64,000 bases of DNA from Arenicola marina (taxonomy: Eukaryota; Annelida; Polychaeta; Arenicolidae), in contig OZ025248.1 in NCBI GenBank assembly GCA_964019135.1, positions 17,491,574-17,555,573 of the forward strand, given 5' to 3'. Shown here piece after piece: positions 24,265-58,303 of the stretch. The position numbers were made by a program, and so were the translations under genes. Below the pieces are notes generated by a model. That model was not told the DNA's origin. It saw only the letters and a list, made by a program, of their open reading frames with translations, and did not search any database. Each line of letters begins with the position of its first letter. Positions within the stretch are counted from its first letter, which is position 1.

Positions 24265-24823
24265 GGGCGCTGGGCGAAGGGATTACAGGGGCAGTCTAAT
24301 AAGTTCCCTCTCGATTATTACCCCTGATATACACCCAGCGGTCGGTGTGTTTATCACACCTCCAGATTACCTAGCCCAGCAGTCCGCCGTCCCATCATCT
24401 CCCTTAATCTCTGGACATTGATTGAGCGAGTGGCAATACAAATCCACCAGATTTTATGCGGTGAAGTAACACAAATAACCGTTCGGGGTTCCCTCCGCCT
24501 GGATCCATCGAGGTACTCAAGTTGTCCTGCATGTCACACGAGCTTGTTAAGACGAAATATCAATATTTCGTCTTATGTAACTTGGTCTAGGACTTTTAGC
24601 CACTTCAATCTCGAGGTTTGTATATTTTTTTTTTCGTATCATCTTACTGTCCTAACGACAACAGCTATCGTTCATCAACTTTGATGGAAGTTGGACGAAA
24701 AACGTAAAAGTGCTAAGGCTTGCTTAATTTTTGTCCTAAAGAGATGCGACTAGCGTCAAAATGTTCCACTGATTAGGGGACACAACTTTAATATGGACCA
24801 ATTTTTTGCGCGTAGGAAGAAGT

Positions 24824-26330
24824 TTCGTGCAAAATGACGTCATAGTTTACCTTGTCCTTATGTTCAAACTAGATGCACGTTGATTTTCCACTTTAACTTT
24901 CTCAATCGTCGCCAACCTTCAATGATGTCTTCAGAAAGTCGCTATGACCCATTTCCCGAAGAAAAATTCGCCGTCAATGACGTCACATGGCGGCAATTTT
25001 TATTTTATTTAAATACGCATTAAATTTACTGCATAATTAATATTGGGAATGGAGAGATCGGATTCGGGTCCCAGAACGTCTAATTTTACCGCCTAGTTGT
25101 TTCTTAGTTAAGAAAAGATACTTTCTATTTTACTTTTCCCGCTAGAGGGCAAAACATTCCTTATGGAGATTCCCATATTAAAGTCGGCTGCGGATTTGGA
25201 ATGGCAGTGAGTGAGCGGGTTCGCGATAAGGCACCGTGTTGTTTATATATTGTGATGTGATTTATCGGGAGAGGCGATCAGTCACAGTCGTGGGGAGGGA
25301 GGGGAGCACGTAGCATACCATTAATACAGCGGATCGATATTGTGTACAAAGAGTTCCGAAAGAATCGCCCCCCCCCCCCCCCACTCCCAGCCGCCCACCT
25401 GTCCCACGGGCTCCTGCCTGTCCACCCCCCCCCCACCTCCCTCGCCCACCCACACCAATCAGGGTTAATGGACTCCTCTCTGCTTATTCCCCACACCCAT
25501 CCACCCGACTCCTGCAGCCCCACGCCCCGTCGACATTCATCAGACTCCGGCATTACTGGCCCGCCCCCCGCCCACCGGCACCTAGTTTCGCGCAAAATGA
25601 CGTCATAGTTCACCTTGTCCTTATGTTCAAATTAGATGCACGTTGTTTTCCCACTTTAACTTTCTCAATCGTCGTGAACCTCCAATGATGTATTCAGAAA
25701 GACGGTATGACCCATTTCCCGAAGAAAAATTCGCCGTCAATGACGTCACATGACGTCAAAAAAATGAAATATTTATATACGCATTAAATTCACTGTATAG
25801 TTAATATTGGGAATAGACAGATCAGATTCGTGTCACTGAACGTCTAATTTTACGGCCTAGTTGTTTCTTAGTTAAAACAAGATACTTTCTATTTTAATTT
25901 TCCCGCTAGAGGGCCAAACATTCCTTATGGGAATTCCCATGTTAAAGTCGGCTCCGGATCGAGACAGCGGGCTGCACGGGGAGTGCAGTGAGTGAGCGAT
26001 TCGCGATAAGGCAACGTGTTGTTTATCGCCCCCGCAGCCGCCACCAGCCTCACGGACTCCTGCCCCTCCACCCCCCCCCCCCATCCCTTCCCTCGCTCAC
26101 CCACACCAACCAGGGTTAATGGACTTTTCTCTGCTCATCCCCCACACCCATCCACCCGACTCCTGCAGCCCCACAGCCCGTCGACACTTATCAGACTTCG
26201 GCATTACTGGCCCGCCCCCCCCCCCGCCCACAGGCACCCACTAGACTTAAGCTTTCGCGATAAGGCACCGTATTGTTGATATATTGTGATGTGATATATT
26301 GGGAGACGAGGGAGGAGGGAGGGGGGGCAC
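24824..26330. repeat. About 764-bp tandem duplication within Z1
   Basis: 24833-25260 and 25597-26035 align in direct order: 'aaaatgacgtcatag', 'gatgcacgttg', 'cgtcaatgacgtcacatg', 'cctagttgtttcttagtta', 'cccgctagagggc' and 'tcgcgataaggca' all recur about 764 bp apart. The C-rich spacers (25371-25590 and 26030-26240) also match each other, and a third partial copy of the 'tcgcgataaggcaccgt' end lies at 26256-26330. The copies differ in the length of their C runs. Confidence 0.85.
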
Positions 26331-26599
26331 ACTCGTGGGAAAGAAGAACAGGAACCAGGAATGAATCGCCCCCGCAGCCGCCCATAGCCTCAAGGACTCA
26401 TGTCCCTGCTCCCCACTCTCATCCACCAGGCTCCTGCTGTCATTCCCTCCCACCTTCTTCACCATCACTCGTCAGAATCATACACTACAGCGCTGGTAGA
26501 GGGGGTGAGTTGGCTGGTGGCGGAATCCATGGCGCAGAAAACCCAGTCAACCAGGTGGTTTCTTTCAATGCGACGCAGGCACGCACCGTGGTCGCCTTT

Positions 26600-27022
26600 A
26601 TACTGTGGCCCGTAGGTACAACGGTTGCGCTGAGGGTATTGCTCCGCTCAGCGAGGTGAAACGGCTCTGCGGAGGTCATTTCTTCGCTCTGCGCAGTACA
26701 TTTCCTTGGTCCGCGTGTACATTTCTTCGCTTCGCGTGTACATTTCCTCGCTTCGCGCAGTACATTTCTCCGTTCCGCGCAGTATATCTTTCCGCTTCGC
26801 GCAGTATATCTTTCCGCTCCGCGCAGTATATTTCTCCGTTCCGTGCGGTGAAACGGCTCCGCGGAGGTCATTTCTTCGCTCTGCGCAGTACATTTCTTCG
26901 CTCCGCGCAGTCTATTTCTCCGCTCCGCGCGGTACATTTCGCCAGACCTCCGCGGAGCCGTTTCACCTCGCGGAGCGAAGAAATACCCTCAGCGCCACCG
27001 TTGTACTTATGGGCCACAGTAA
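26600..27022. repeat. Foldback structure: 78-bp inverted repeats around a 22-bp array
   Basis: The left arm (26600-26677) and right arm (26945-27022) are reverse complements at about 70 of 78 positions. Between them are about eight degenerate units of a 22-bp repeat ('tacatttctccgttccgcgc' plus 'ag') and an additional direct copy of the inner arm ('gtgaaacggctccgcgg', 26848-26870). The whole could fold into a long hairpin. The outer part of the right arm also belongs to the module duplicated at 28712, so the left arm may have arisen by an inverted duplication of that module. Open frames on both strands are by-products. Confidence 0.85.
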
Positions 27023-29222
27023 TATCACAGACGGCAAAGCGAAGGGCATAACCACACAACGTTATGTCTTTTGGGAAAACCCAAACAATACTCCCTCGGT
27101 CAGCTCCACGCCCCCTGATGGATGACATGGTATTCCATTGGTGGACTGATTTAACGAATAATTGCGTGAAACTGCAATCTGCCGATCTGCAATCTGTCAA
27201 TCTCTGTCTTAAAGACGCCCTCCCTACCGGCTGAATTATCCCCGGACAACAGCCCCCCCCCTCCCCCACCCCGGGCAAATCCCCACAATTCCCTCACAGA
27301 CCGTGCCCCCCCCCCACACACACAATGCTTTCTACCGCCACTCCCACTTGACAATCACCCTGCCCCCTTCATGACAATACTCCCTCGATCAGCCCCATAC
27401 CTCATATCCGCCCCCCCCGCCCCCCAAAGCTATGCTCCCTCAATCAGCCCCACGCCCCTCCTCCCTCATGGCAATACTCCCTCAGTCAGCCCTATGCCCC
27501 CTTCCCCCATGACAATACTCCCTCGATCAGCCCCATGCTTCATCCCGCCCCACACACCCTAAGACTATACTCCCTGGGTCAGCCCCATGCCCTCTTTCTC
27601 CATGACAATACTCCCTCGGTCAGCCCGACGCCTCCTCCCTCCTCATGACAATACTTCCTCGGTAAGCCCCATGTCCCCCGCCCCCATGACAATACTCCCT
27701 CGGTCTGCCTTATGCCTCCATCCCCACGACAATAAACCCTCGGGCAGCCCCATGCCCTCGCCCTCCAAGACAATAATCCCTCGATCAGCCCCATGCTTCA
27801 TCCCGCCCCACCCCCAACGGCTATACGCCCTCGGTCAGCCCCATGCCCCTCCCTTCACATGACAATACTTCCTCGGTCAGCCCCATGCCCCCTCCCCACA
27901 TGAAAATACTCCCTCGATCAGCCCCATGCTTCATCCCGTCCCACCCCCCAAGAACATACTCCCTGGGTCAACCCCATGCCCTCTTTCTCCATGACAATAC
28001 TCCCTCGGTCAGCCCGACGCCTCTTCCCTACTCATGACAATAATTCCTCGGTCAGCCCCATGCCCCCTCCCCCCATGACAATACTCCCTCGGTCTGCCCC
28101 ATCCCCCAAGACAATACACCCTCGGGCAGCCCCCCCCCCTCGAGACAATACTCCTTCGGTCAGCCCCCCCCCCCGAAACAACTCTCTCGGTCAGCCCATT
28201 CCTCCTCCTCAATCATGGCAATACTCCCTCGATCAGCCCCATGCCCCCTCCCTTCACATGACAATACTCCCTCGGTCAGCCCCATGCCCCCTCCCTCCAC
28301 ATGAAAATACTTCCTCGGTCAGCCCCATGTCCCCTGCCCCCCATGACAATACTTCCTCGCTCAGCCCCATGCCCCCTTTTCCCCCGAGACAATACTCCCT
28401 CGGTCAGCCCCATGCCCCCTCCCTCCACATGAAAATACTTCCTCGGTCAGCCCCATGTCCCCTGCCCCCCATGACAATACTTCCTCGCTCAGCCCAATGC
28501 CCCCTTTTCCCCCGAGACAATACTCCCTCGGTCAGCCCAATGCCCCCTTCCCCCATGACAATACTCCCTCGGTCAGCCTCATGCCCCCTGCCCCCCAAGA
28601 CAATACTCCCTTGGTCAACCCTATGCCGCCGCCTCCCTAACACAATGCTTCCTCGGTCAGCCTGGTCTAGGAGCTTGGGCTAACGGTTTAAGCTACCGGC
28701 CTGGCTTAGAAGGAGCGAAGAAATACCCTCAGCGCCACCGTTGTACCTATGGGCCACAGTAATATCACAGACGGCAAAGCGAAGGGCATAACCACACAAC
28801 GTTATGTCTTTTGGGAAAACCCAAACAATACTCCCTCGGTCAGCTCCACGCCCCCTGATGAATGACATGGTATTCCATTGGTGGACTGATTTAACGAATA
28901 ATTGCGTGAAACTGCAATCTGCCGATCTGCAATCTGTCAATCTCTGTCTTAAAGACGCCGTCCCTACCGGCTGAATTATCCCCGGACAACAGCCCCCCTC
29001 CCCCACCCCGGGCAAATCCCCACAATTCCCTCACAGACCGTGCCCCCCCCCCCCCTCCCACACACACACAATGCTTTCTACCGCCACTCCCACTTGACAA
29101 TCACCCTCCCTCCACATGACAATACTTCCTCGGTCAGCCCCATGCCCCCTGCCCCCCAAGACAATACTCCCTTGGTCAACCCCATGCCCCCGCCTCCCTA
29201 ACACAATGCTTCCTCGGTCAGC
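26972..29222 (+). repeat. 1,740-bp tandem duplication with contracted minisatellite in second copy
   Basis: 26972-27360 and 28712-29102 are nearly identical (about 390 bp, starting 'gagcgaagaaataccctc'). Each is followed by the 'catgacaatactccctcgg' minisatellite, then by the segment ending 'ctaccggcctggcttag'. The minisatellite is about 1.3 kb after the first module and only about 120 bp after the second. This means either that the array expanded after duplication or that the second copy contracted. Confidence 0.85.
27361..28662. repeat. About 40-bp C-rich minisatellite
   Basis: Roughly 30 imperfect units built from 'atgacaatactccctcggtc' and 'agccccatgccccctccccc', with unit length varying from about 30 to 45 bp because of C-run length and missing halves. 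Some blocks of several units recur exactly (for example near 28287-28385 and 28414-28510). Proline-rich plus-strand frames and Gly-rich minus-strand frames are artefacts of composition. Confidence 0.85.
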
Positions 29223-29615
29223 CTGGGCTAGGAGCTTGGGCTAACGGTTTAAGCTACCGGCCTGGCTTAGCAGCCTGGGCAAAGCTGCCTGGGCCAGGGG
29301 CCTGGGCTAGCGGCCTGAGGTAGCGGCCCTGGCAAGGCCTAGATTGATGCCCTGGCTAGCCGCCTGGGTTGGCGCCCTGGCTAGCGGCCTGGGTTAGCAT
29401 ACTGGGCTAAACCTGGGTTAGCATACTGGGGTAAACCTGGGTTAGCGGCCTAGGCTAGCAACCTATGGGATGCTTACGGGGGCAGCGCCCAGAGCCAGCA
29501 GCCTGGACTAGCGGCCAGGGCTAGGCCTGGTTTAGGGGCCTCGGCTGGTGCCCTGGGCCAGGGGCATGGGCTAGTAGCCTGGGCCTGAGCTAGCCTCCTG
29601 AGCTAGCTCATGCCC
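29222..29615. repeat. 13-16 bp degenerate 'gcctgggctagc' repeat
   Basis: About 25-28 degenerate units resembling 'ggcctgggctagc', with irregular spacing. A short near-perfect subrepeat of 'ctgggttagcatactggg' lies near 29390-29430. The stretch is GC-rich and ends sharply where AT-rich sequence begins near 29620. Confidence 0.75.
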
Positions 29616-29667
29616 CTGAACGAAAAAAAAGAACAAATTTCTCGTTGATCTAGGAGCAACGCCTCCG

Positions 29668-30150
29668 CCATTTTGCAACATGACCAACCAGGCCAGCAAA
29701 ATACTGAATATCTTGAAAACAACAGGGATAGAACTATTATTTTGATACCTGTACATATTTTTTCGGGGTCACTGAATTCGAAAGAAAATAATTATTGAAT
29801 ATCCTGTTGGAACGTGTTTTTTTCTTCAAAATGGCGGACAAGACCACGAAAATACTCAATATTTTGAAAATTAACACTGATGATTTTTATGTTTATGTAT
29901 ACTTTTTGGGGACTAAAGAAGTGCTATTGTGTAAGTTGGGGCAACGCACCTGCCATTATTCCAAGAGGGCGGATACGGTCTGTAACAGTACACAACATCT
30001 CCAAAACGAAGTGGAATCCCTCTATTTAACTTTATGTATTGGTTTTCGTGGTCAAAGAATTCAACAACTTGTCTTCAAGACCAAGGCGTCTTTAGTTTGC
30101 CATAATGACGGCTATTTCAACAATAATACACAATATCTGGAAATCTAAAA
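29668..30150. repeat. About 140-bp degenerate tandem repeat
   Basis: Three to four diverged copies. Each has an 'aaaatggcgg'-like start or its counterpart, a 'gaaaatactgaatatcttgaa' -like middle, a 'tgtatattttt' patch and a 'cggggtcactgaattc' end. The ends fall near 29780, 29920 and 30062, giving a spacing of about 140 bp. A 117-codon plus frame crosses it but shows no recognisable domain. Confidence 0.65.
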
Positions 30151-31102
30151 GGTGCAGGGGCGTCATTGTGAGGATAACCATATGTACCGTGGTCACAGAT
30201 CTACAAACAATAGGTTACAGATTTCGAGATCTAGGTTCATTTCGCTCGTATCTCGTAGCTTTGCCCACAAAAATGGGTGTCAAGTTCGCAACGGAAACCT
30301 GAAAGACTTACCCTCTCATTGAGAATCATCCGCGCCCGCCATCACTACGAGTAAATGTAATGGGGTAACTACAAGTAGAACGCCATCCCAACCAATTGGA
30401 GAAACTCTCTGGTGACAAGGCAGAACCTTCTGAGTGAGGATGTTTAGGCTGTCGATACAGGGTTTAGGCTGCAGAGAAAGAAGTCATCCATAATGGTTCA
30501 TGTGGCATAATTCGAACCTGCAAAGCTATGGATAGACATCAGAATAACTGTTTTATCCTTGTCCTTGTCAGTTTCTAAGATACTATGGAAATTGCCGCCA
30601 TAGACGTCAGGTGTCAAATCTGATTTGACACTATAGCTCAATTTGATTAGCCATGGTGGAATTTCGAACATGTGTGCCAAATTGATGCTTTTACCACAAC
30701 ATGCACGATTGTTTCGCATATGCGCGGAACTGTCATCTATTATGCGCCCATAAGTTCATGAGTTTACCCATGAGACAGTTCATAAGTAGATATTTTTAGC
30801 AAAATAGAAGCCATCGCGAATATTGTCGTGACCGTCAAATGACGTCACGAAGACATAATAAATAAAAGATACGAAAGTACCGTTAATAATGCTTCAAGAG
30901 AAGCGCTCTTTGCTTCAAACTGGATGTTCATTTAAGCTCCCCGCCTACAGTGCTGCCTGTTGAAGGCAGTATTTACCCCATATGCGCTTAAAAGGCCCTT
31001 CGGCCGAAATTGGCCCTGACGACTCGTCACGTCGCCATTATTACAGATTCCAAAAGTACTTATGGATTTTCGTCCTCGACCTATGGTCGAATATCTCTTG
31101 TT
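30150..31102 (+). repeat. Right-hand part of Z1, final 360 bp shared with Z2
   Basis: 30740-31102 aligns to about 57944-58303, including 'catcgcgaatattgtcgtga', 'aataaataaaagatacgaa', 'ggccctgacgactcgt' and the terminal palindrome. 30150-30740 shows nothing recognisable. Confidence 0.8.
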
Positions 31103-33490: not shown

Positions 33491-34550
33491 ATGGGCCTTG
33501 CAGTACAAGAAGGCCATCCGCCATTGTGTTTAACAATGTAATATAACAATTGACATCTGCAGACGCACGTAGGCTTAACAGCCATGCGATGGCTCGTCGC
33601 AGAATGAGTGCGTTGATAAAGACAGCGATGTCGGTGTCCTCGAGTTACGCTTTCGTTTGTAGCCAATTATCGTGTTTTCTGGCGCATCGGATAGATGGAG
33701 TGTCAACCAAAGAATCAATCTCCTGCTCTCTTCTTTGTTCTATCATTGACTATAAGGTATGTTGCCTTTAATCGCGTGGACATGTCGGGGATGGATCAAA
33801 TTCTGTAGGAAATATGACAGCCATTAATTTTGTTATTTTTCTACCCTGTTTCACAATGTTTCCAGACAAAGGAGACAACATTGTTAGGAAGGAAATTGTC
33901 GTTGACGAAGCATAAAGAGGGCGGTGGAGGGTGGTGGGGGGGTTGCCCAAAAGTAGAGGTCTTGCAATGGTTGGCCTATTTATGAACGTTTCATTAAGGG
34001 GCTCAAGAAACGCGAGAACAAATGGGTTGATACGTTACACATCGGTACAGATGCAAGTCAGTGGGGCAGGATCTACAAGTGACTTCTGAAATGCACATGG
34101 GTTAAAAAAATAAGCAGTTTTCAATTTGTCGCTGTGTACGAACTACTGCAGGTCTTCATCGGTGTAGTTTTGCCACCCAGAAACACATCTTTTGTCGGGA
34201 CTTCGTTGAATCCACACACTGTCCGAGTGAGTCATCCAGCAACATTTCACCGGAGATTAAGTTACGCGCTGAGCTCTCTTGTCCGTCGATGTTTAGGTAC
34301 AACACATGGCTGACTGAATTAGTGGAAGCCAGACATGGCAGACAATAGTGGCACCGGCTGCAGTGGCGCCCCCTGCATTGAGAGCCCCGCGGCAGGGTTC
34401 TCGCTGTATATATGTCCCGTGATGGAAGGAGCCGACCGGGTTCGGCTGACATCTCCCCAGTCAGATACCCTGCTCGATTGACCTGTATTTATAGGGACAG
34501 ATAGGCTCGGTCACCAGGCTGTCTTTTTTTTTATTATCGCCCTCGTATAC

Positions 34551-34735: not shown

Positions 34736-34895
34736 GGACACGACGTGTCTCGGGCGGCGCCGGTTAACGGTTAAGGGTGGAGTGACCTGTGGTTGGACAG
34801 GTACCCTAGGGCGCAATCAGCCCCTGCAGTCTCTCAGTGCTACTGGGATAAAGGGACTCAGCGGGCGCTAAAATTAACTTTTAACCCCCACATGC

Positions 34896-35093
34896 CCTGA
34901 CTACCGGTGGACGGGCTCCTCTCCCTGGCCCCACCCCACACCCCCTGACGACCGGTGGACGGGGTCTTCCCCCTGCCCCCACCCCATTCCCTGACTACCC
35001 GTGGACGGGCTCCTCCCCGGGGCTCTTACCCCCATTTCCTGACTACCCGTGGACGCCCCCCCCCTCAACCACCCCTGCCCCCACCCAAATCCC
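34896..35093. repeat. 48-bp minisatellite, short form (H copy 1)
   Basis: About four diverged units with the 'ctgactaccggtggacgggc' and 'tcctccccctggcccc' halves of the huge array at 39711-50100. The flanks ('gggataaagggactca' to the left, 'gacgggcgatctctgg' to the right) are the same as those of the large array, so this is the same locus in another copy of H. Confidence 0.85.
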
Positions 35094-36439: not shown

Positions 36440-38050
36440 CATGGGGGCGGTGGGCGAAGGGATTACAGGGGCATTCTAATAAATTCCCTCTCGATTATTA
36501 CCCCTGATATACACCCAGCGGTCGGTGTATTTACCACAATTCCAGATTACCTAGCCCAGGAGTTCGCCATCCCATCATCTCCCTCCATCTCTGGACATTG
36601 ATTGAGCGAGTGGCAATGCAAATCCACCAGATTTTATGCGGTGAAGTAACACAGATAACCGTTTCGGGGTTCCCTCCGCCTAGATCCGTCGAGGTACTCA
36701 GGCTGTCCTGCATGTCACACGAGCTTGTTTGTTTGGTAGGCCAGCTGTTTAGAGAGCAATTCTATCAATAAACAAGGCTTGATCCGTGGCAATATTCCAC
36801 TCTCCCGTGTGGTGTTCCATGGAGCCGTCTGATCCCGGCTTGGTCTGGCGTAGATGCCGCTAGCAGCACCCGATTGGGACATGGCATGATGTCACAAAGG
36901 TGCTGTAGCCATGTGGGAGGTGACTCCTAAGGGAACATTTGACTTCAATGGAATATACGATGGGGCCGAGTGGGAAGGGGCGGGGAAGGGGGGGGGGTGT
37001 TAAATAAACCCCATTGTGAGTTGTGATGGATATGCATAAAGGCATGATCAAATATTGTGGGGTTATTTCACGCTGTAGGATTGCGCCTTTCGCGAATAGT
37101 CTGGTTGACCATGGGACAGACGTAATAATTAAAGCTGGCATAGAGCAATTGTCCATCTATATTATTATGACTTAAAATCGTTTTTAGAAATATCTTGGAC
37201 ATTTTCTGACTGTATGAGTGTTAATTCTCTATTAAATATACGTTATCCTAATAAAACAGGCAAATCACCATAAATAAGCTGCATGCCCATCGTCTTACGA
37301 AGACGGACTGATGCCAACGAACCCAGCATGGACCAGTCCGTCTGGACTGCCATAAGCCACACCTTGGTGACACCACTGACCATGCCATTGTTAGAATGTA
37401 CAGCTAACGCTCACTCATATTTACGGTGCCTGGTTATAACGATATCGACGGAATCCGGTGTCTCTCTTATCTATCCTGATCCACGTCCCCCTGGTGTGTA
37501 TTTTAGTCATAATGTCAATTTCAGCGAGTGTTGTATTCAAAGTGTATTCAACTATGTCTGAACAATGTGCCAAATGCAGAATTATTCTACATCCGGTCAA
37601 ATTTCGGATTATACATTATACCCGAATTAGATTTTAGTAATACGAACGGGTCAAACTGTTTGGCCGTATACAAATATTTCAGATTTATTTTTCGCCGCCC
37701 CCCTCGGGACATACACTCCTAATCCCTAAGACATGTGCGGTCGTTTCACCTTTCGACTAAAAACTTGTCATGGTTTAAGTTAAGTCTCATTCAGCCAATG
37801 TGCACAAACCTGGCCTAAATCACCCACCCATTCAATCATTGATCTGCGAAAAGAGCCCTGAAACACGATATTTATAAACGCACAGCATATTTCGCTGCTT
37901 TTCAATCCAATATCAGAGTTCACCCTCTGTTACCACGTGTGTAAAGCCAAGACGGTCCATGCGCCAGACCGGGATATAGGTCCTAACATATTAAAAGGCA
38001 CCTAATGGAAGATAAAGGCGGGCTGGGAACATCACGATAGATGCATGTCA

Positions 38051-38878: not shown

Positions 38879-41149
38879 TCAGCAAGCTAGTTCCGCATAA
38901 AACGGGTGTCGCGACAAAATGTCGCCTCCGTCTCCTGGATGGATGGAATTCTGTTGAAATATGACATAGCAAACAATTTGGCCGATTTGCATAGCCTATT
39001 GTAGACTATCCCCAGGCAATAGGAAAGATATTGTGTGGAAGAAAATTGTCCTTGATGCAGCATAAACACGTGGCGGTTGAATGGGAGGGTGTTGAAGAGT
39101 GATTAGGAGTCTTGCAATGGTTGGCCTATTTATGAACGTTTTAATAAAGGCTTCAAGAAAAGCGAGAAAATGGGTTGATACGTTACACATCGGTTCAGAT
39201 GCAAGTCAGTGAGTCACGTTACCTCTGAAATGCACATGGGTTAAAAAAATAAGCAGTCTTCAATTTGTCGATGTGTACGATCTAATGCAGGTCTTCATCG
39301 GTGTAGTTTAGCCATCCAGAACAGCATCTTTTGTCGGGACTTCGTTGAATCCTCACAATGTCCGAGTGAGTCATCCAGCAACATTTCACCGGAGATTAAG
39401 TTGTCCTGTCTTGTCCGTCGATGTTTAGGTACACATGGCTGACTGAATTAGCGGAAGCCAGACATGGCGGACAATAGTAGCACCACTAAGGGTGGAGGGA
39501 CCGGGGGGACAGGTGCCCTAGGGCGCAGTCAGCTGCAGTCTCTCAATGCTACTGGGATAAAGGGACTCATCGGGCGCTAAAATTAGCTTCTCGAGCCAGC
39601 AAAACCCTTGATAAATTGATCTAATGTTATCATCGTTGTTGACCTAAACGTTAACGTCATCGCCATGTCGCTGGCGTGAGACATGTAGGTGTTATGTTCC
39701 TACCTGCCTACCTGGCTCCTCCCCCTGGCCCCACCCCACACCCCCTGACTACCCGTGGAGGGGCTCCTCCCCCTACCCCACACCCCCTGATGACCGGTGG
39801 ACGGGCTCCTCCCCCTGGCCCTACCTCACACCCCCTGACTACCCGTGGAGGGGCTCCTCCCCCTGGCCCTACCTCACACCCCCTGACAACCGGTAGACTG
39901 GCTCCTCCCCCTGGCCCTACCCCACACGCTCTGACAACCGGTAGACTGGCTCCTCCCCCGGGCCCTACCTCACACACCCTGACAACCGGTAGACTGGCTC
40001 CTCTCCCGGGCCCTACCTCACACCCCCTGACAACCGGTAGACTGGCTCCTCCCCCTGGCCCTACCTCACACCCCCTGACAACCGTTAGACTGGCTCCTCC
40101 CCCGGGCCCTACCCCACACCCCCTGAAAACCGGTAGACTGGCTCCTCCCTCTGGCCCTACCCTACACCCCCTGACAAACGGTAGACTGGCTCCTCCCCCG
40201 GGCCCTACCCCACACGCCCTGACAACCGGTAGACTGGCTCCTCCCCCGGGCCCTACCTCACACCCCCTGACAACCGGTAGACTGGCTCCTCTCCCGGGCC
40301 CTACCTCACACCCCCTGACAACCAGTAGACTGGCTCCTCCCTCTGGCCCTACCCCACACCCCCTGACAACCGGTAGACTGGCTCCTCCCCCTGGCCCTAC
40401 CCCACACCCCCTGACAACCGGTAGACTGGCTCCTCCCCCGGGCCCTACCCCACACGCCCTGACAACCGGTAGACTGGCTCCTCCCCCGGGCCCTACCTCA
40501 CACCCCCTGACAACCGGTAGACTGGCTCCTCTCCCGGGCCCTACCTCACACCCCCTGACAACCGGTAGACTGGCTCCTCCCTCTGGCCCTACCCCACACC
40601 CCCTGACAACTGGTAGACTGGCTCCTCCCCCTGGCCCTACCCCACACCCCCTGACGACCGGTAGACTGGCTCCTCCCCCGGGCCTTACCCCACACCCTCT
40701 GACGACCGGTGGACGGGCTCCTCCCCCTGGCCCTACCTCACACCCCCTGACTACCCGTGGAGGGGCTCCTCCCCTTGGCCCCACCTCACACCCCCTGACG
40801 ACCGGTGGACGGGCTCCTCCCCCTGGCCCTACCTCACACCCCCTGGCGACCGGTGGACTGGCTCCTCCCCCTGGCCCTACCTCACACCCCCTGACGACCG
40901 GTGGACGGGCTCCTCCCCCGGGCCCCACCCCACACTCCCTGGCGACCGGTGGACGGGCTCCTCCCTCTTGCCCCACCCCACATCCCCTGACCACCGGTGG
41001 ACTGGCTCCTCCCCCCGGCCTTACCCCACACCCCCTGACGACTGGTGGACAGGCTCCTCCCCCTGGTCCTACCCCACCCCCCTGACAACCGGTAGACTGG
41101 CTCCTCCCCCGGGCCCTACCCCACACCCCCTGACGACCGGTTCACGGGC

Positions 41150-44100
41150 TCCTCCTTCTGGCCCTACCCCACACCTCCTGACGACCGGTGGACGGGCTCC
41201 TCCCTCTGGCCCTACCCTACACCCCATGACGACCGGTAGACTGGCTCCTCCCCCGGGCCTTACCCCACACCCCCTGACGACCGGTGGACGGGCTCCTCCC
41301 TCTAGCCCTACCCCACACCCCCTGACCACCGGTGGACGGGCTCCTCCCTCTGGCCCTACCCCACACCCCCTGACAACCGGTAGACTGGCTCCTGCCCCGG
41401 GCCCTATCCCACACCCCCTGACGACCGGTGGACGGGCTCCTCCCTCTGGCCCTACCCCACACCCCCTGACGACCGGTGGACGGGCTCCTACCCCTGGCCT
41501 TTCCCCACACCCAATGACGACCCGTGGACGGACTCCTCCTCCTGGCCCAACCCCACATCCACTGACGACCCGTGGACGGGCTCCTCCCCCTGGCCCCACC
41601 TCACACCCCCTGACGACCGGTGGACGGGCTCCTCCCCCTGGCCCTACCTCACACCCCCTGGCGACCGGTGGACGGGCTACTCCCCCGGGCCCCACCCCAC
41701 ACCCCCTGACGACCGGTGGACTGGCTCCTCCCCCTGGCCCCACACCACACCCCCTGACTACCCGTGGAGGGGCTCCTTCCCCTACCCCACACCCCCTGAT
41801 GACCGGTGGACGGGCTCCTCCCCCTGGCCCTACCTCACACCCCCTGACTACCCGTGGAGGGGCTCCTCCCCCTGGCCCTACCTCACACCCCCTGACAACC
41901 GGTAGACTGGCTCCTCCCCCTGGCCCTACCCCACACGCCCGGACAACCGGTAGGCTGGCTCCTCCCCCGGGCCCTACCTCACACCCCCTGACAACCGGTA
42001 GACTGGCTCCTCTCCCGGGCCCTACCTCACACCCCCTGACAACCGGTAGACTGGCTCCTCCTCCTGGCCCTACCCCACACCCCCTGACAACCGGTAGACT
42101 GGCTCCTCCCGCGGGCCCTACCCGACACCCCCTGATGACCGGTGGACGGGCTCCTCCCCCTGGCCCTACCCCACACCCCCTGACTACCCGTGCAGGGGCT
42201 CCGCCCCCTGGCCCTACCTCACACCCCCTGACAACCGGTAGACTGGCTCCTCCCCCTGGCCCTACCCCACACGCCCTGACAACCGGTAGACTGGCTCCTC
42301 CCCCTGGCCCTACCCCACACGCCCTGACAACCGGTAGACTGGCTCCTCCCCCGGGCCCTACCTCACACCCCCTGACAACCGGTAGACTGGCTCCTCCCCC
42401 TGGCCCTACCCCACACCCCCTGACTACCCTTGGAGGGGCTCCTCCCCCTGGCCCTACCTCACACCCCCTGACAACCGGTAGACTGGCTCCTCCCCCTGGC
42501 CCTATCCCCACACGCCCTGACAACCGGTAGACTGGTTCCTCCCCCGGGCCCTACCTCACACCCCCTGACAACCGGTAGACTGGCTCCTCCCCCTGGCCCT
42601 ACCCCACACCCCCTGACAACCGGTAGACTGGCTCCTCCCCCGGGCCCTACCCCACACCCCCTGACAACCGGTAGACTGGCCCCTCCCTCTGGCCCTACCC
42701 TACACCCCCTGACAACCGGTAGACTGGCTCCTCCCCCGGGCCCTACCCCACACGCCCTGACAACCGGTAGACTGGCTCCTCCCCCGGGCCCTACCCCACA
42801 CCCCCTGACAACCGGTAGACTGGCTCCTCACCCGGGCCCTACCCTACACCCCCTGACGACCGGTGGACGGGCTCCTCCCTCTGGCCCTACCCCACACCCC
42901 CTGACGACCGGTGGACGGGCTCCTCCCCCTGGCCCTACCCCACACCCAATGACGACCCGTGGACGGACTCCTCCCCCTGGCCCAACCCCACATCCACTGA
43001 CGACCCGTGGACGGGCTCCTCCCCCTGGCCCCACCTCACACCCCCTGACGACCGGTGGACGGGTTCCTCCCCCTGGCCCTACCTCACACCCCCTGACTAC
43101 CCGTGGAGGGGCTCCTCCCCCTGGCCCTACCTCACACCCCCTGACAACCGGTAGACTGGCTCCTCCCCCTGGCCCTACCCCACACGCCCTGACAACCGGT
43201 AGACTGGCTCCGCTCCCGAACCCTACCTCACACCCCCTGACAACCGATAGACTGGCTCCTCCCCCTGGCCCTACCCCACACCCCCTGACAACCGGTAGAC
43301 TGGCTCCTCCCCCGGGCCCTACCCCACACCCCCTGACAATCGGTAGACTGGCTCCTCCCTCTGGCCCTACCCTACACCCCCTGACAACCGGTAGACTGGC
43401 TCCTCTCCCGGGCCCTACCTCACACCCCCTGACAACCGGTAGACTGGCTCCTCCCCCTGGCCCTACCCCACACCCCCTGACAACCGGTAGACTGGCTCCT
43501 CCCCCGGGCCCTATCCCACACCCCCTGACAATCGGTAGACTGGCTCCTCCCTCTGGCCCTACCCTACACCCCCTGACAACCGGTAGACTGGCTCCTCTCC
43601 CGGGCCCTACCTCACACCCCCTGACAACCGGTAGACTGGCTCCTCCCTCTGGCCCTACCCCACACCCCCTGACAACTGGTAGACCGGCTCCTCCCCCGGG
43701 CCTTACCCCACACCCCCTGACGACCGGTAGACTGGCTCCTCCCCCTGGCCCAACCCCACACCCCCTGACGACCGGTGGACGGGCTCCTCCCCCGGGCCCC
43801 ACCCCACACCCCCTGACAACAGGTGGACTGGCTCCTCCCCCTGGCCCTACCCCACACCCCCTGACGACCGGTGGACGGGCTCCTCCCTCTGGCCCTACCC
43901 TACACCCCATGACGACCGGTAGACTGGCTCCTCCCCCGGGCCTTACCCCACACCCCCTGACGACCGGTGGACGGGCTCCTCCCTCTGGCCCTACCCCACA
44001 CCCCCTGACCACCGGTGGACGGGCTCCTCCCTCTGGCCCTACCCCACACCCCCTGACAACCGGTAGACTGGCTCCTGCCCCGGGCCCTATCCCACACCCC

Positions 44101-46548
44101 CTGACGACCGGTGGACGGGCTCCTCCCTCTGGCCCTACCCCACACCCCCTGACGACCGGTGGACGGGCTCCTACCCCTGGCCTTTCCCCACACCCAATGA
44201 CGACCCGTGGACGGACTCCTCCTCCTGGCCCAACCCCACATCCACTGACGACCCGTGGACGGGCTCCTCCCCCTGGCCCCACCTCACACCCCCTGACGAC
44301 CGGTGGACGGGCTCCTCCCCCTGGCCCTACCTCACACCCCCTGGCGACCGGTGGACGGGCTACTCCCCCGGGCCCCACCCCACACCCCCTGACGACCGGT
44401 GGACTGGCTCCTCCCCCTGGCCCCACACCACACCCCCTGACTACCCGTGGAGGGGCTCCTTCCCCTACCCCACACCCCCTGATGACCGGTGGACGGGCTC
44501 CTCCCCCTGGCCCTACCTCACACCCCCTGACTACCCGTGGAGGGGCTCCTCCCCCTGGCCCTACCTCACACCCCCTGACAACCGGTAGACTGGCTCCTCC
44601 CCCTGGCCCTACCCCACACGCCCGGACAACCGGTAGGCTGGCTCCTCCCCCGGGCCCTACCTCACACCCCCTGACAACCGGTAGACTGGCTCCTCTCCCG
44701 GGCCCTACCTCACACCCCCTGACAACCGGTAGACTGGCTCCTCCCCCTGGCCCTACCCCACACCCCCTGACAACCGGTAGACTGGCTCCTCCCGCGGGCC
44801 CTACCCCACACCCCCTGATGACCGGTGGACGGGCTCCTCCCCCTGGCCCTACCCCACACCCCCTGACTACCCGTGCAGGGGCTCCGCCCCCTGGCCCTAC
44901 CTCACACCCCCTGACAACCGGTAGACTGGCTCCTCCCCCTGGCCCTACCCCACACGCCCTGACAACCGGTAGACTGGCTCCTCCCCCTGGCCCTACCCCA
45001 CACGCCCTGACAACCGGTAGACTGGCTCCTCCCCCGGGCCCTACCTCACACCCCCTGACAACCGGTAGACTGGCTCCTCCCCCTGGCCCTACCCCACACC
45101 CCCTGACTACCCTTGGAGGGGCTCCTCCCCCTGGCCCTACCTCACACCCCCTGACAACCGGTAGACTGGCTCCTCCCCCTGGCCCTATCCCCACACGCCC
45201 TGACAACCGGTAGACTGGTTCCTCCCCCGGGCCCTACCTCACACCCCCTGACAACCGGTAGACTGGCTCCTCCCCCTGGCCCTACCCCACACCCCCTGAC
45301 AACCGGTAGACTGGCTCCTCCCCCGGGCCCTACCCCACACCCCCTGACAACCGGTAGACTGGCCCCTCCCTCTGGCCCTACCCTACACCCCCTGACAACC
45401 GGTAGACTGGCTCCTCCCCCGGGCCCTACCCCACACGCCCTGACAACCGGTAGACTGGCTCCTCCCCCGGGCCCTACCCCACACCCCCTGACAACCGGTA
45501 GACTGGCTCCTCACCCGGGCCCTACCCTACACCCCCTGACGACCGGTGGACGGGCTCCTCCCTCTGGCCCTACCCCACACCCCCTGACGACCGGTGGACG
45601 GGCTCCTCCCCCTGGCCCTACCCCACACCCAATGACGACCCGTGGACGGACTCCTCCCCCTGGCCCAACCCCACATCCACTGACGACCCGTGGACGGGCT
45701 CCTCCCCCTGGCCCCACCTCACACCCCCTGACGACCGGTGGACGGGTTCCTCCCCCTGGCCCTACCTCACACCCCCTGACTACCCGTGGAGGGGCTCCTC
45801 CCCCTGGCCCTACCTCACACCCCCTGACAACCGGTAGACTGGCTCCTCCCCCTGGCCCTACCCCACACGCCCTGACAACCGGTAGACTGGCTCCGCTCCC
45901 GAACCCTACCTCACACCCCCTGACAACCGGTAGACTGGCTCCTCCCCCTGGCCCTACCCCACACCCCCTGACAACCGGTAGACTGGCTCCTCCCCCGGGC
46001 CCTACCCCACACCCCCTGACAATCGGTAGACTGGCTCCTCCCTCTGGCCCTACCCTACACCCCCTGACAACCGGTAGACTGGCTCCTCTCCCGGGCCCTA
46101 CCTCACACCCCCTGACAACCGGTAGACTGGCTCCTCCCCCTGGCCCTACCCCACACCCCCTGACAACCGGTAGACTGGCTCCTCCCCCGGGCCCTATCCC
46201 ACACCCCCTGACAATCGGTAGACTGGCTCCTCCCTCTGGCCCTACCCTACACCCCCTGACAACCGGTAGACTGGCTCCTCTCCCGGGCCCTACCTCACAC
46301 CCCCTGACAACCGGTAGACTGGCTCCTCCCTCTGGCCCTACCCCACACCCCCTGACAACTGGTAGACCGGCTCCTCCCCCGGGCCTTACCCCACACCCCC
46401 TGACGACCGGTAGACTGGCTCCTCCCCCTGGCCCAACCCCACACCCCCTGACGACCGGTGGACGGGCTCCTCCCCCGGGCCCCACCCCACACCCCCTGAC
46501 AACAGGTGGACTGGCTCCTCCCCCTGGCCCTACCCCACACCCCCTGAC
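41150..46548. repeat. 2,683-bp higher-order duplication inside the 48-bp array
   Basis: 41150-43865 and 43833-46548 match with a constant offset of 2,683 bp and very few differences (for example 'cccgacacc' near 42124 against 'ccccacacc' near 44807, and 'aaccgatag' near 43244 against 'aaccggtag' near 45927). Distinctive markers such as the extra C in 'ctatccccacacgcc' (42504 and 45187) sit in both. The offset is 5 bp short of 56 units, so unit phase shifts slightly within the block. Confidence 0.9.
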
Positions 46549-48703
46549 AACCGGTGGACTGGCTCCTCCCCCTGGCCCTACCTCACACCCCCTGACGACC
46601 CGTAGACGGGCTCCTCCCCCTGGCCCCACCTCACACCCCCTGACGACCGGTGGACGGGCTCCTCCCCCTGGCCCTACCTCACACCCCCTGGCGACCGGTG
46701 GACGGGCTACTCCCCCGGGCCCCACCCCACACCCCCTGACAACCGGTGGACTGGCTCCTCCTCCTGGCCCTACCTCACACCCCCTGACGACCGGTGGACG
46801 GGCTCCTCCCCCTGGCCCTATCCCACACCCCCTGACGACCGGTGGACGGGATCCTCCCCCTGGCCCCACCCCACACTCCCTGGCGACCAGTGGACGGGCT
46901 CCTCCCCCTTGCCCCACCCCACACCCCCTGACCACCGGTGGACTGGCTCCTCCCCCGGCCCTACCCCACACCCCCTGACGACTGGTAGACAGGCTCCTCC
47001 CCCTGGTCCTACCCCACACCCCCTGACAACCGGTAGACTGGCTCCTCCCCCGGGCCCTACCCCACACGCCCTGACAACCGGTAGACTGGCTCCTCCCCCG
47101 GGCCTACCTCACACCCTCTGACAACCGGTAGACTGGCTCCTCTCGGGCCCTACCTCACACCCCCTGACAACCGGTAGACTGGCTCCTCCCTCTGGCCCTA
47201 CCCCACACCCCCTGACAACTGGTAGACTGGCTCCTCCCCCTGGCCCTACCCCACACCCCCTGACGACCGGTAGACTGGCTCCTCCCTCGGGCCTTACCCC
47301 ACACCCCCTGACAACCGGTAGACTGGCTCCTCCCTCTGGCCCTACCCTACACCCCCTGACAACCGGTAGACTGACTCCTCCCCCGGGCCCTACCCCACAC
47401 GCCCTGACAACCGGTAGACTGGCTCCTCCCCCGGGCCGTACCTCACACCCTCTGACAACCGGTAGACTGGCTCCTCTCCCGGGCCCTACCTCACACCCCC
47501 TGACAACCGGTAGACTGGCTCCTCCCTCTGGCCCTACCCCACACCCCCTGACAACTGGTAGACTGGCTCCTCCCCCGGGCCCTACCCCACACCCCCTGAC
47601 GACCGGTAGACTGGCTCCTCCCCCGGGCCTTACCCCACACCCCCTGACGACCGGTGGACGGGCTCCTCCCCCTGGCCCTACCCCACACCCAATGACGACC
47701 CGTGGACGGACTCCTCCCCCTGGCCCAACCCCACATCCACTGACGACCCGTAGACGGGCTCCTCCCCCTGGCCCCACCCCACACCCCTTGACGACCGGTG
47801 GACTGGCTTCTCCCACTGGCCCTACCCCACACCCCCTGACGACCGGTGGACGGGCTCCTCCCCCTGGCCCTACCCCACACCCAATGACGACCCGTGGACG
47901 GGCTCCTCCCCCTGGCCCTACCTCACGCCCAATGACGACCCGTGGACGGGCTCCTCCCCCTGGCCCTACCCCACACCCACTGACGACCCGTGGACGGGCT
48001 CTTCCCCCTGGCCCCACCTCACACCCCCTGACGACCGGTGGACGGGCTCCTCCCCCTGGCCCTACCTCACACCCCACACCCCACACCCCCTGACGACCGG
48101 TGGACGGGCTTCTCCCTCTGGCCCTAGCCCACACCCCCTGGCGAGCGGTGGATTGGCTCCCCCCACTGGCCCTACCCCACACCCCCTGACGACCGGTGGA
48201 CGGGCTTCACCCTCTGGCCCTACCCCACACCCCCTGACCACCGGTGCACGGGCTCCTCCCCTTGGCCCTACCCCACACCCCCTGACCACCGGTGGACGGG
48301 CTCCTCCCTCTGGCCCTACCCTACACCCCCTGACGACCGGTAGACTGGCTCCTCCCCCGGGCCCTACCCCACACCCCCTGACGACCGGTGGACGGGCTCC
48401 TCCCTCTGGCCCTACCCCACATCCCCATGACGACCGGTAGACTGGTTCCTCCCCCTGGCCCTACCCCAGACCCCCTGACTACCCGTGGACGGGCTCCTCT
48501 CCCTGCCCCCACCCCAGTCCCTGCTCCTCCCCCTGCCCAGCTCCTTCCCTATGCCCTGCTCTTCCCCCTGGCCCCATCCCACACCCCTTGACGACCGGTG
48601 GACGGGCTCCTCCCTCTGGCCCTACCCCACACCCCCTGCCGACCGGTGGACTGGCTCCTCCCTCTGGCCCTACCCCACACCCCCTGACGACCGGTGGACG
48701 GGC

Positions 48704-48912
48704 TCCTCCCTCTGGGGGTCCTCCCTGGTGTAGTGGTTAGCGCACTAGACCGCAGATCAATAAGTCCTGGGTTCGAATCCGGGCTCGGGCACCTAATCTG
48801 GGGCATGTTTCATTCCTTCATCCTTCATCGTCTCGGGAGGTTCCTTGGCCCAATTTAGCCTGTATGTGCACAAAAGTGGCCTAAAACACCAACATTCCAT
48901 TCCTCCCTCTGG
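48704..48912 (+). mobile_element. tRNA-derived SINE inserted in the 48-bp array, 12-bp target duplication
   Basis: The 12-bp 'tcctccctctgg' occurs at 48704-48715 and 48901-48912, flanking a 185-bp body (48716-48900). Removing the body and one copy restores a normal array unit. The head carries RNA polymerase III boxes: A box 'tggtgtagtgg' (48726-48736) and B box 'ggttcgaatcc' (48770-48780), with a pairable T-stem (CCTGG/CCGGG). The anticodon arm is poorly formed, so it is not a functional tRNA gene. The tail holds 'tgtgcacaaaagtggcctaa', which resembles sequence at 32480, 37800, 54765 and 61750. It ends in an ATTCC-like stretch rather than poly(A). Confidence 0.88.
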
Positions 48913-50499
48913 CCCTACCCCACACCCCCTGACGACCGGTAGACTGGCTCCACCCCCTGGCCCTACTCTACACCCCCTGACGACCGGTGCACTGGCTCCT
49001 CCCACTGGCCCCACCCCACACACCCTGACAACCGGTAGACTGGCTCCCCCCCTGGCCCTACCCAACACCCCCTGACGACTGGTGGACGGGCTCCTCCCCC
49101 TGGCCCTACCCCACACCCCCTGACGACCGGTAAATTGGCTCCTCCCCCTGGCCCTACCCCACACCCCCTGACGACTGATGGACGGGCTCCTCCCCCTGGC
49201 CCCAACCCACACCCCCTGACGACCGGTAGACTGGCTCCTCCCCCTGGCCCTACTCTACACCCCTTGAGGACCGCTGCACTGGCTCCTCCCCCTGGCCCCA
49301 CCCCACGCCCCCTGACGACCGGTGGACGGGCTCCTCCCCCTGGCCCTACTCTACACCCCTTGAGGACCGCTGCACTGGCTCCTCCCCCTGGCCCCACCCC
49401 ACGCCCCCTGACGACCGGTGGACGGGCTCCTCCCCCTGGCCCCAACCCACACCCCCTGACGACCGGTAGACTGGCTCCTCCCCCTGGCCCTACTCTACAC
49501 CCCTTGAGGACCGCTGCACTGGCTCCTCCCCCTGTCCTCACCCCACACCCTCTGACGGTCGGTTGACGGGCTCCTCCCCCTGGCACTACCCCACACCCCC
49601 TGACGACCGGTAGACTGGCTCCTCCCTCTGCCCCTACCCCAAACCCCCTGACGACCGGTGGACGGGCTCCACCCTCTGGCCCTATCCCACACCCGCTGAC
49701 GACCGGTGGACTGGCTCCTCCCTCTGGCCCTACCCCACACCCCCTGACGACCGATGGACTGGCTCCTCTCTCTGGCCCTATCCCACACCCCCTGACGACC
49801 GGTAGACTGGCTCCTCCCCCGGGCCCTACCCCACACCCCTGACGACCGGTGGACGGTCTTCTTCCCCTGGCCCTACCCCACACCCCCTGACGACCGGTGG
49901 ACGGGCTCCTCCCCCTGCCCCCACCCTATTCCCTGCTCCTCCCCCTGCGCTGCTCCTCTCCTTGCCCTGCCCCTCCCCCTGGCCCCACCCCACACTCCCT
50001 GGCGACCGGTAGACGGGCCCCCCCCCCCACTGTCCCCACCCCATTCCCTGACTAGCCGTGGACAGCTCGCCCCCTCCCCCACCAACCCCCTGCCTCCACC
50101 CACATCCCCTGACGGGCGATCTCTGGTTACTGCCCTCCGGTGTATGCTCGGCGGTCGATGAACTCCTTTATATTCGTTTAGAAGTGGAAATGTGATGTTT
50201 ATCGTCTAAATCATTGGCTGTCTTCAGTATGAGAATGAGTAAGAGCCTTGTGTATGAAATGTCAAACTGTTGGATCCGCAAATCTTAGTACCTTCTTTTC
50301 TTTCACCCGAATCGTATTATAATTGAAAATGTCAACGCACTTGAGTTGCGTTGTTCTATTTCTTCTTCCCATTATGGGGATATGCCTAGTTGGACCCTCT
50401 TTAAACCAAGCCAAGTGCTTGCATAGATTGTGTCGCCCCCTAGTGAGCGATGGACAATTGATATGATCGTCGTTTCTAATGTGGACAGCGATTGTCTAT

Positions 50500-55692: not shown

Positions 55693-58303
55693 ATGACGAA
55701 AATTCGTCATATGACAGTTGGTCGTGTTTGTTTGTTCGTTTTTTTGTATGTCTGTTTCACTAAAAAACGGGAAGTCGTCTTGTGACCTAACGGCTGCATA
55801 CATCGGTTGGCAGTCTTCAGTATCTAATAGCTAGGCTATAGGGCTACACCATACTCGTCACTCAGGTTAAAAGCTCAAAAGTCAAGGTCACAGCGATTTT
55901 TTGAAACAATAACTATAAACGCTTATATCTCCGTTAATATTGACGCTACAGATCTCTGATCAGTTTCAAGATGTGCTAGCATTCAAGGCGCAATTTTCGC
56001 GTATTGTTCACTTTTGATGCGTAATACTCATTTTTGAGTAAAATGAGGTAATACGTTTTGCGGAAAACGCACTAAATGACCTCTGTCAGTTTTCTCGCTT
56101 TTGGGCACATTTGCCATCAAGCTATCGATATGATATTCTAATATGCCATAGAAATATGAATTGAGATGAGTTGTGTCGAATCTTAGAGTTTTCTGATGAG
56201 TCACGTGACGTCACGATGACGTCACTTTTGGTACTTAAAAAAAATCGTCAAAGATCTGAAAAAAATCCCAAAAATGAGAAAGTAGCATCATATTGTAGGA
56301 AACGTAGTTTCTCGTATAGCTGCAAGCTAAAAACAATATGTTCCTATCTTACTTCCGGTTCCAGGGCCGACGGCATTTCTCTATGGGACTTCCCATGTTA
56401 AAGCGCTGTATCTTCAGGCTGGGAAAAATGTTTTGTCGTGTATTTCACAAGTGCCTTCATCAAACGACACCGGCATTTTTTCCTTAGTTAAACATGATAC
56501 ATAGTAGCCTCAGTGCTTATCGCATGCGATTGGAGCAAATAGTGACGTCACAGGATTTTTTTGAAATTTGGCCAATGGTGAAAGATGCGGGTTTTTGGTG
56601 TTAGCAGAGGCTCCTACGGATGTCCTATTCAAGTCAGCACTCAATGCTTGCAGCTGTAGATGGATAATACTAAGCTGAGTCATAATCTGTCCACATGGTT
56701 CCATAGCCACATTACTTTTCGGTCAGTCCAAATCGGTTAACATGGGATCCTATGGGGAAAAATTAACTTGATCTAATATGACCTACTTCCGCTCAAGCTA
56801 TTTCAGTCTCCTTCGCCACACAGTGAGGTAATATCACCTAAAAGCAAGTTATAAGAAAAACAAGGCGATCTCTGTATTACTTTTTGCTTCCATGGCAACG
56901 AAGCTACTGGCCAAATGATAAACATACAGATTCTTGCCATTAAAAGAAAAATCGTCAAAAATCAGATAAAAATGCTAAAATTGTATTCTTTTCGCCAACT
57001 AGTTGCCAATAAGCATCTACAGATCACTTAATGCTTCAATCAGGCGGATGTTGCTCAGTTATGGCGCTAGAGTGCTTCAAAGTGGGACTACACCTTTGAG
57101 GGCCACCAATGATGAGTGAATGGAGATTGTGTCCTTCTTTAAAACAACGTCAAAATTAAGAAAAACATACCAGAGCTGTGATCTTTAGGCCAAATGGTAG
57201 GGACCATTGATCGGCAGAAACCTAGTAAAAGAAACAAATGAGTTGCTATATCACTTCGCCTGCAGTGTTCTTTGTTCTTGAACATGATGAACTAATGCAA
57301 CTTTACTATTCTTTCTATCGCGTAGCTCTTTAATCGAATAAGTTTTGGCAGTAAAACCATGGCGTATTGCCACTTGGACGTTGTCGTGCGTCACGTCATA
57401 ACGTCACTATGACGTCATGACGTCACACATCTTACGTAAGCTATTACTCAGCTATTATAAAGTATGGCGACTTTCGGGTCGCTTGACGTTGCAGGTCGTG
57501 TTCAGGGACAGCTTGTGCAAGGTGTAACTTTTTTGGTGCAGGGGATAAGTATGCGTAAAAAATGACATCATAGCTAACGTGCTCCTACGAAATGTTGGGT
57601 TTGCTTTATTTTCAACAACTTTGGCAATAGCTGTCATAACCCGAGTTGATAAGTAGGCATTTTAGAGAAATAGAAGCCATCTTGAGCATTTTTGCGAACG
57701 TCAAATGACGTCATGTCACGTCACGATGACGTATTATTAGATAAAAAGTAAAATTCGTAGCGCCATTCATAATGAGTCAAGCAATCGCTCTTGAGAACAA
57801 CACTTCATGTTCACTTAAACACGTCGTCTTCAGAGACCTATGGCGAAGCGAATAAGTGTGCGTCAACTTCATAGCCTACGTGCTCCTACGAAAGTTTGGG
57901 CCTGCTTGATGTTCAGCAAATTTGGAATAGCTACCATCACCCACAAGTTCATGAGTTCACCCATGATTTCGTAAGTAGGTATACTTAACAAAATAGAAGC
58001 CATCGCGAATATTGTCGTGATCGTCAAATGAAGTTCGTGAAGTCACGAAGACATAATAAATAAAAGATACGAAAGTACCGTTAATATAGTTTCAAGAGAA
58101 GCGCCTTGGCTTTAAACTGGATGTCCAATTAAGCTCCGCCTACAGTGCCACACTGCCTGTCGAAGGGAGCATTTAGCCCAAATTGCCCCTATAAGGCCCT
58201 TTAGCCGAAATTGGCCCTGACGACTCGTAACGTCGCCATTAATACAGCTTTCAAATGTACTTATGTATTTTCGTCCTCGACCTATGGTCGAATATCTCTT
58301 GTT
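55693..58303 (+). mobile_element. Insert Z2: candidate non-autonomous Helentron-like element
   Basis: Copy 1 of H reads through at 33730-33750 ('tctttgttctatcattgac'). Here 'ttctttgtt' ends at 55692 and 'ttatcattgac' resumes at 58304. The left end is a palindrome (ATGACGAA-aa-TTCGTCAT, 55693-55710). The right end has 'ttttcgtcc', the palindrome TCGACC-tat-GGTCGA (58277-58291) and 12 nt ending TTGTT, identical to Z1. The last 360 bp match Z1. 57640-57830 and 57960-58145 look like diverged tandem copies of each other. The interior is rich in TGACGTCA palindromes and has no coding frame of note. At 2,611 bp it is much shorter than Z1 (6,554 bp), as expected if the interiors of non-autonomous members vary. 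Confidence 0.75.

Follow-up and report, generated by a model that had tools for sequence, protein, structure and literature searches.

Non-coding copies of Helentron-type rolling-circle elements (HINEs) are known from Metaseiulus occidentalis and Culex (Thomas et al. 2014, PMC4067079), where palindromic subterminal repeats and a 3′ palindrome near the end go together with insertion into T-rich TT sites that leaves the target unmodified, and where some copies carry tandem repeats. The Cg_HINE elements of the Pacific oyster (PMC7492417) are also among the closest described systems, and the fungal FoHeli / Helitron2 elements (PMC5148889) have asymmetric terminal inverted repeats, with hairpins at both ends of FoHeli1 and 2 and a reported joined-end form. 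Here we analyse two inserts of one family, Z1 and Z2, in a 64,000-nucleotide stretch of the polychaete Arenicola marina (assembly GCA_964019135.1, contig OZ025248.1, forward-strand positions 17,491,574 to 17,555,573; ‘the window’), and compare them with the available parts of these papers. Z has all of the above features of the mite and Culex elements, is likewise non-coding, and shares the asymmetric terminal inverted repeats of the fungal ones. Its ends differ from those described for the mite and Culex, however, its target is a five-nucleotide TTRTT rather than a generic T-rich TT, and no coding partner of >95% identity was found; the insertion point, TTRT^T, also departs from the TNAT^T of FoHeli1 and 2.

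Z1 and Z2 are very probably HINEs. Their terminal palindromes and the empty sites for both in the window, on which the original prediction was built, proved real (Table 1), and its Helentron-type rolling-circle reading is supported by the ends, insertion at TT, copy number, junctions and the presence of Helentron proteins in this genome. We assign the class because a 5′ palindrome, a 3′ hairpin immediately preceded by the inverted partner of that palindrome and TT insertion without target duplication occur together, in hundreds of genomic copies (5′ ends TTATGACGAA/TTAAGACGAA, 3′ end CTCTTG) with 34 head-to-tail junctions. The 5′ end segment of Z1 folds as DNA at -9.6 kcal/mol, a value equalled by none of 200 shuffles, and 41 of 42 genome matches to the Z1 5′ end query start at its first base. 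In HINEs the 5′ palindromic repeat is expected some 2-4 nt in from the terminus; that of Z starts at the border or 1-2 nt from it, the border position itself being uncertain. Near the other end, the distance from the terminus is 36 nt for TTTTCGTCC, slightly below the 38-60 of the mite HINEs (PMC4067079), and 12 nt for a 6-bp stem, inside the 8-35 nt expected for a short 3′ palindrome.

The flanks define the target word. From 38 5′ loci we kept 27 non-tandem left flanks, all of which end in TT (TTGTT 13, TTATT 12, TCATT 1, ATCTT 1); TTRTT thus precedes 25 of 27 elements, as against 5.4% of TT-ending positions in the window outside the elements. On the right, T follows the tail in 40 of 40 distinct non-tandem cases (CTCTTG in 37 rows, a near variant in 3), with T (31), A (5), C (3) or G (1) as the second base; a separate 30-locus 3′ set was skewed towards T at this base because its query ended in TTGTT. 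We also followed 15 copies, mostly picked because their left flank was not TTGTT, and located the 3′ end in 14, where CTCTTGT was invariant (14/14) and the second base was T in 8. Flank counts and paired copies together indicate that the pentamer on the left belongs to the target and the TTG on the right to the element: in Z1, ATATCTCTTG is element sequence, the next T is invariant and the second T is usually flank. TT insertion stands as predicted, with the exact word broadened from TTGTT to TTRTT, and of the TTGTT shared by both ends only the left one is target.

Two other classes were weighed against these borders. A cut-and-paste DDE element, foldback or like a miniature inverted-repeat transposable element, would read the two TTGTT words as a 5-bp duplication, but we regard it as highly improbable: terminal-inverted-repeat transposons of this class make target duplications of constant length, and, of 14 paired copies, 12 lack any repeated pentamer, the remaining two having TTGTT on the left and being uninformative. 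A true TTGTT duplication at unrelated targets, which the original prediction named as grounds for its own refutation, was absent from those 12. In 6 of the 14, the base after TTGT on the right side is A, C or G, and the inverted partner of the 5′ terminal palindrome is inside, not at, the 3′ end. Among the copies followed, one is placed within an ATT microsatellite, and another, L016, shows a four-base repeat, TATT. A canonical Helitron1-type element would share the hairpin 12 nt from the 3′ end, the lack of duplication and the head-to-tail junctions, yet is more improbable still, as the ends are not 5′-TC and 3′-CTRR, the target is TT rather than AT, and the palindrome that forms the 5′ end is partnered by a 3′ subterminal repeat.

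Genome-wide collection of further copies, as originally proposed, also yielded a third empty site, in L061, for the copy L021/L078. The joined flanks of this copy match across the junction at 40 of 40 scored places, with no length change and at 97-99% identity (150 query positions covered in 39 of them, 148 in one). The empty site reads TTGTT and the filled copy TTATT, so that this site alone is compatible with a mutated duplication.

Coding Helentrons, with a Rep-helicase fused to an AP endonuclease and often an OTU domain, are present in the same genome: 24 frames of 2,013-2,345 amino acids were listed alongside 53 Rep matches, many of equal or near-equal score, which suggests recent Helentron activity. 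An intact frame of 2241 amino acids (L069:139-6861) carries the endonuclease, unlike the fungal elements (PMC5148889). For Z, the search for an autonomous Rep/helicase relative yielded no coding element with exactly its ends, those of the intact Helentron family not being reached; it was positive for a second family of the same anatomy, W, at one locus, on C7. There, a 1.1-kb non-coding W element (L086:2394-3551) stands head-to-tail with a 16-kb decayed Helentron (L086:3552 to L085:8918) that has the same ends, and the W 3′ end occurs in 369 copies genome-wide with at most one mismatch. This kind of element is already known, but the Z and W families look new: their ends are absent from the available parts of PMC4067079, PMC5148889, PMC5876387, PMC2267711 and PMC7492417, the exact terminal sequences not themselves having been searched in print. 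A different GACGAA palindrome at C1:11796598, with the C1 Rep copy 18.4 kb downstream of it, and, at C10:32700028, an exact W 3′ end that follows the start of the Rep match at C10:32689278 by 10.8 kb may each be chance.

Table 1 Positions of Z1 and Z2 features within the window
Feature	Position	Strand	Remark
Z1 insert	24549..31102	+	
Left target flank TTGTT of Z1 (target TTRT^T)	24544..24548	+	
Z1 5′ end segment, palindrome	24548..24575	+	DNA fold
Z1 internal segments	26677..26940 and 27414..28662	+	
Z1 3′ segment	30747..31102	+	
Z1 3′ subterminal repeat TTTTCGTCC, inverted partner of 5′-end GACGAAA	31067..31075	+	
Z1 3′ hairpin TCGACC-tat-GGTCGA	31076..31090	+	
Z1 3′ tail ATATCTCTTGTT	31091..31102	+	
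Z1 empty site	36725..36729	+	
Z2 insert	55693..58303	+	flanks continuous at 33735-33739
Z2 5′ end segment	55692..55711	+	33/41 genome matches start at query base 1
Z2 3′ segment	57940..58303	+	
Z2 3′ end	58268..58303	+	
Z2 empty site	33735..33739	+	

Within Z1 and Z2, TGACGTCA occurs six times per element (12 in 9.2 kb) as against five times in the remaining 54.8 kb of the window, and one Helentron tail (L097:231) contains a similar stretch rich in GACGTCA. At least one extra 5′ palindrome end stands directly upstream of the first in L012, L013, L019, L024, L025, L029, L033 and C3:18304584-18304879, as though only the 5′ end had been repeated. Elsewhere in the window, a GC-rich 48-bp unit forms a 10.2-kb array (39712-49926; about 212 copies, 86% matches) that occupies the gap between two repeated segments, and a similar 48-bp unit forms a short array at 34887-35055.

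The best-supported mechanism for Z is single-strand copying mobilised in trans, which would start at the 5′ palindrome, stop at the 3′ hairpin and join at TTRT^T. The head-to-tail arrays could instead reflect separate insertions at the TTGTT of each 3′ end rather than rolling-circle read-through, an account that concerns the arrays and not the element class; we put it somewhat below even, and the near-constant spacing of ATGACG-type junctions on C14 (29871417 and 29874087, 2670 bp apart; 29766222 and 29768884, 2662 bp apart) argues against it.

TTGT, the word at the 3′ terminus, agrees with the TTRT of the target, and we tentatively raise the possibility, which we hold to be rather unlikely, that the nuclease moving the element recognises a single word, TTRT^T, in the target as well as at the element’s own 3′ end (CTC-TTGT then T). 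A one-word cut-site code of this sort would resemble that of bacterial single-strand transposons, here in a Helentron that additionally carries an AP endonuclease. If so, termination and insertion would be the same Rep cut and the element would therefore carry its own landing site, and every inserted copy would re-create that site at its 3′ end, with head-to-tail arrays as an automatic consequence. The borders account for the double TTGTT, the left word being target and the right one element, and bear on which Ts belong to a Helentron and which part of the enzyme picks the site. With well-bounded families alongside 24 Helentron frames, ends, targets and enzymes can be compared within one species.
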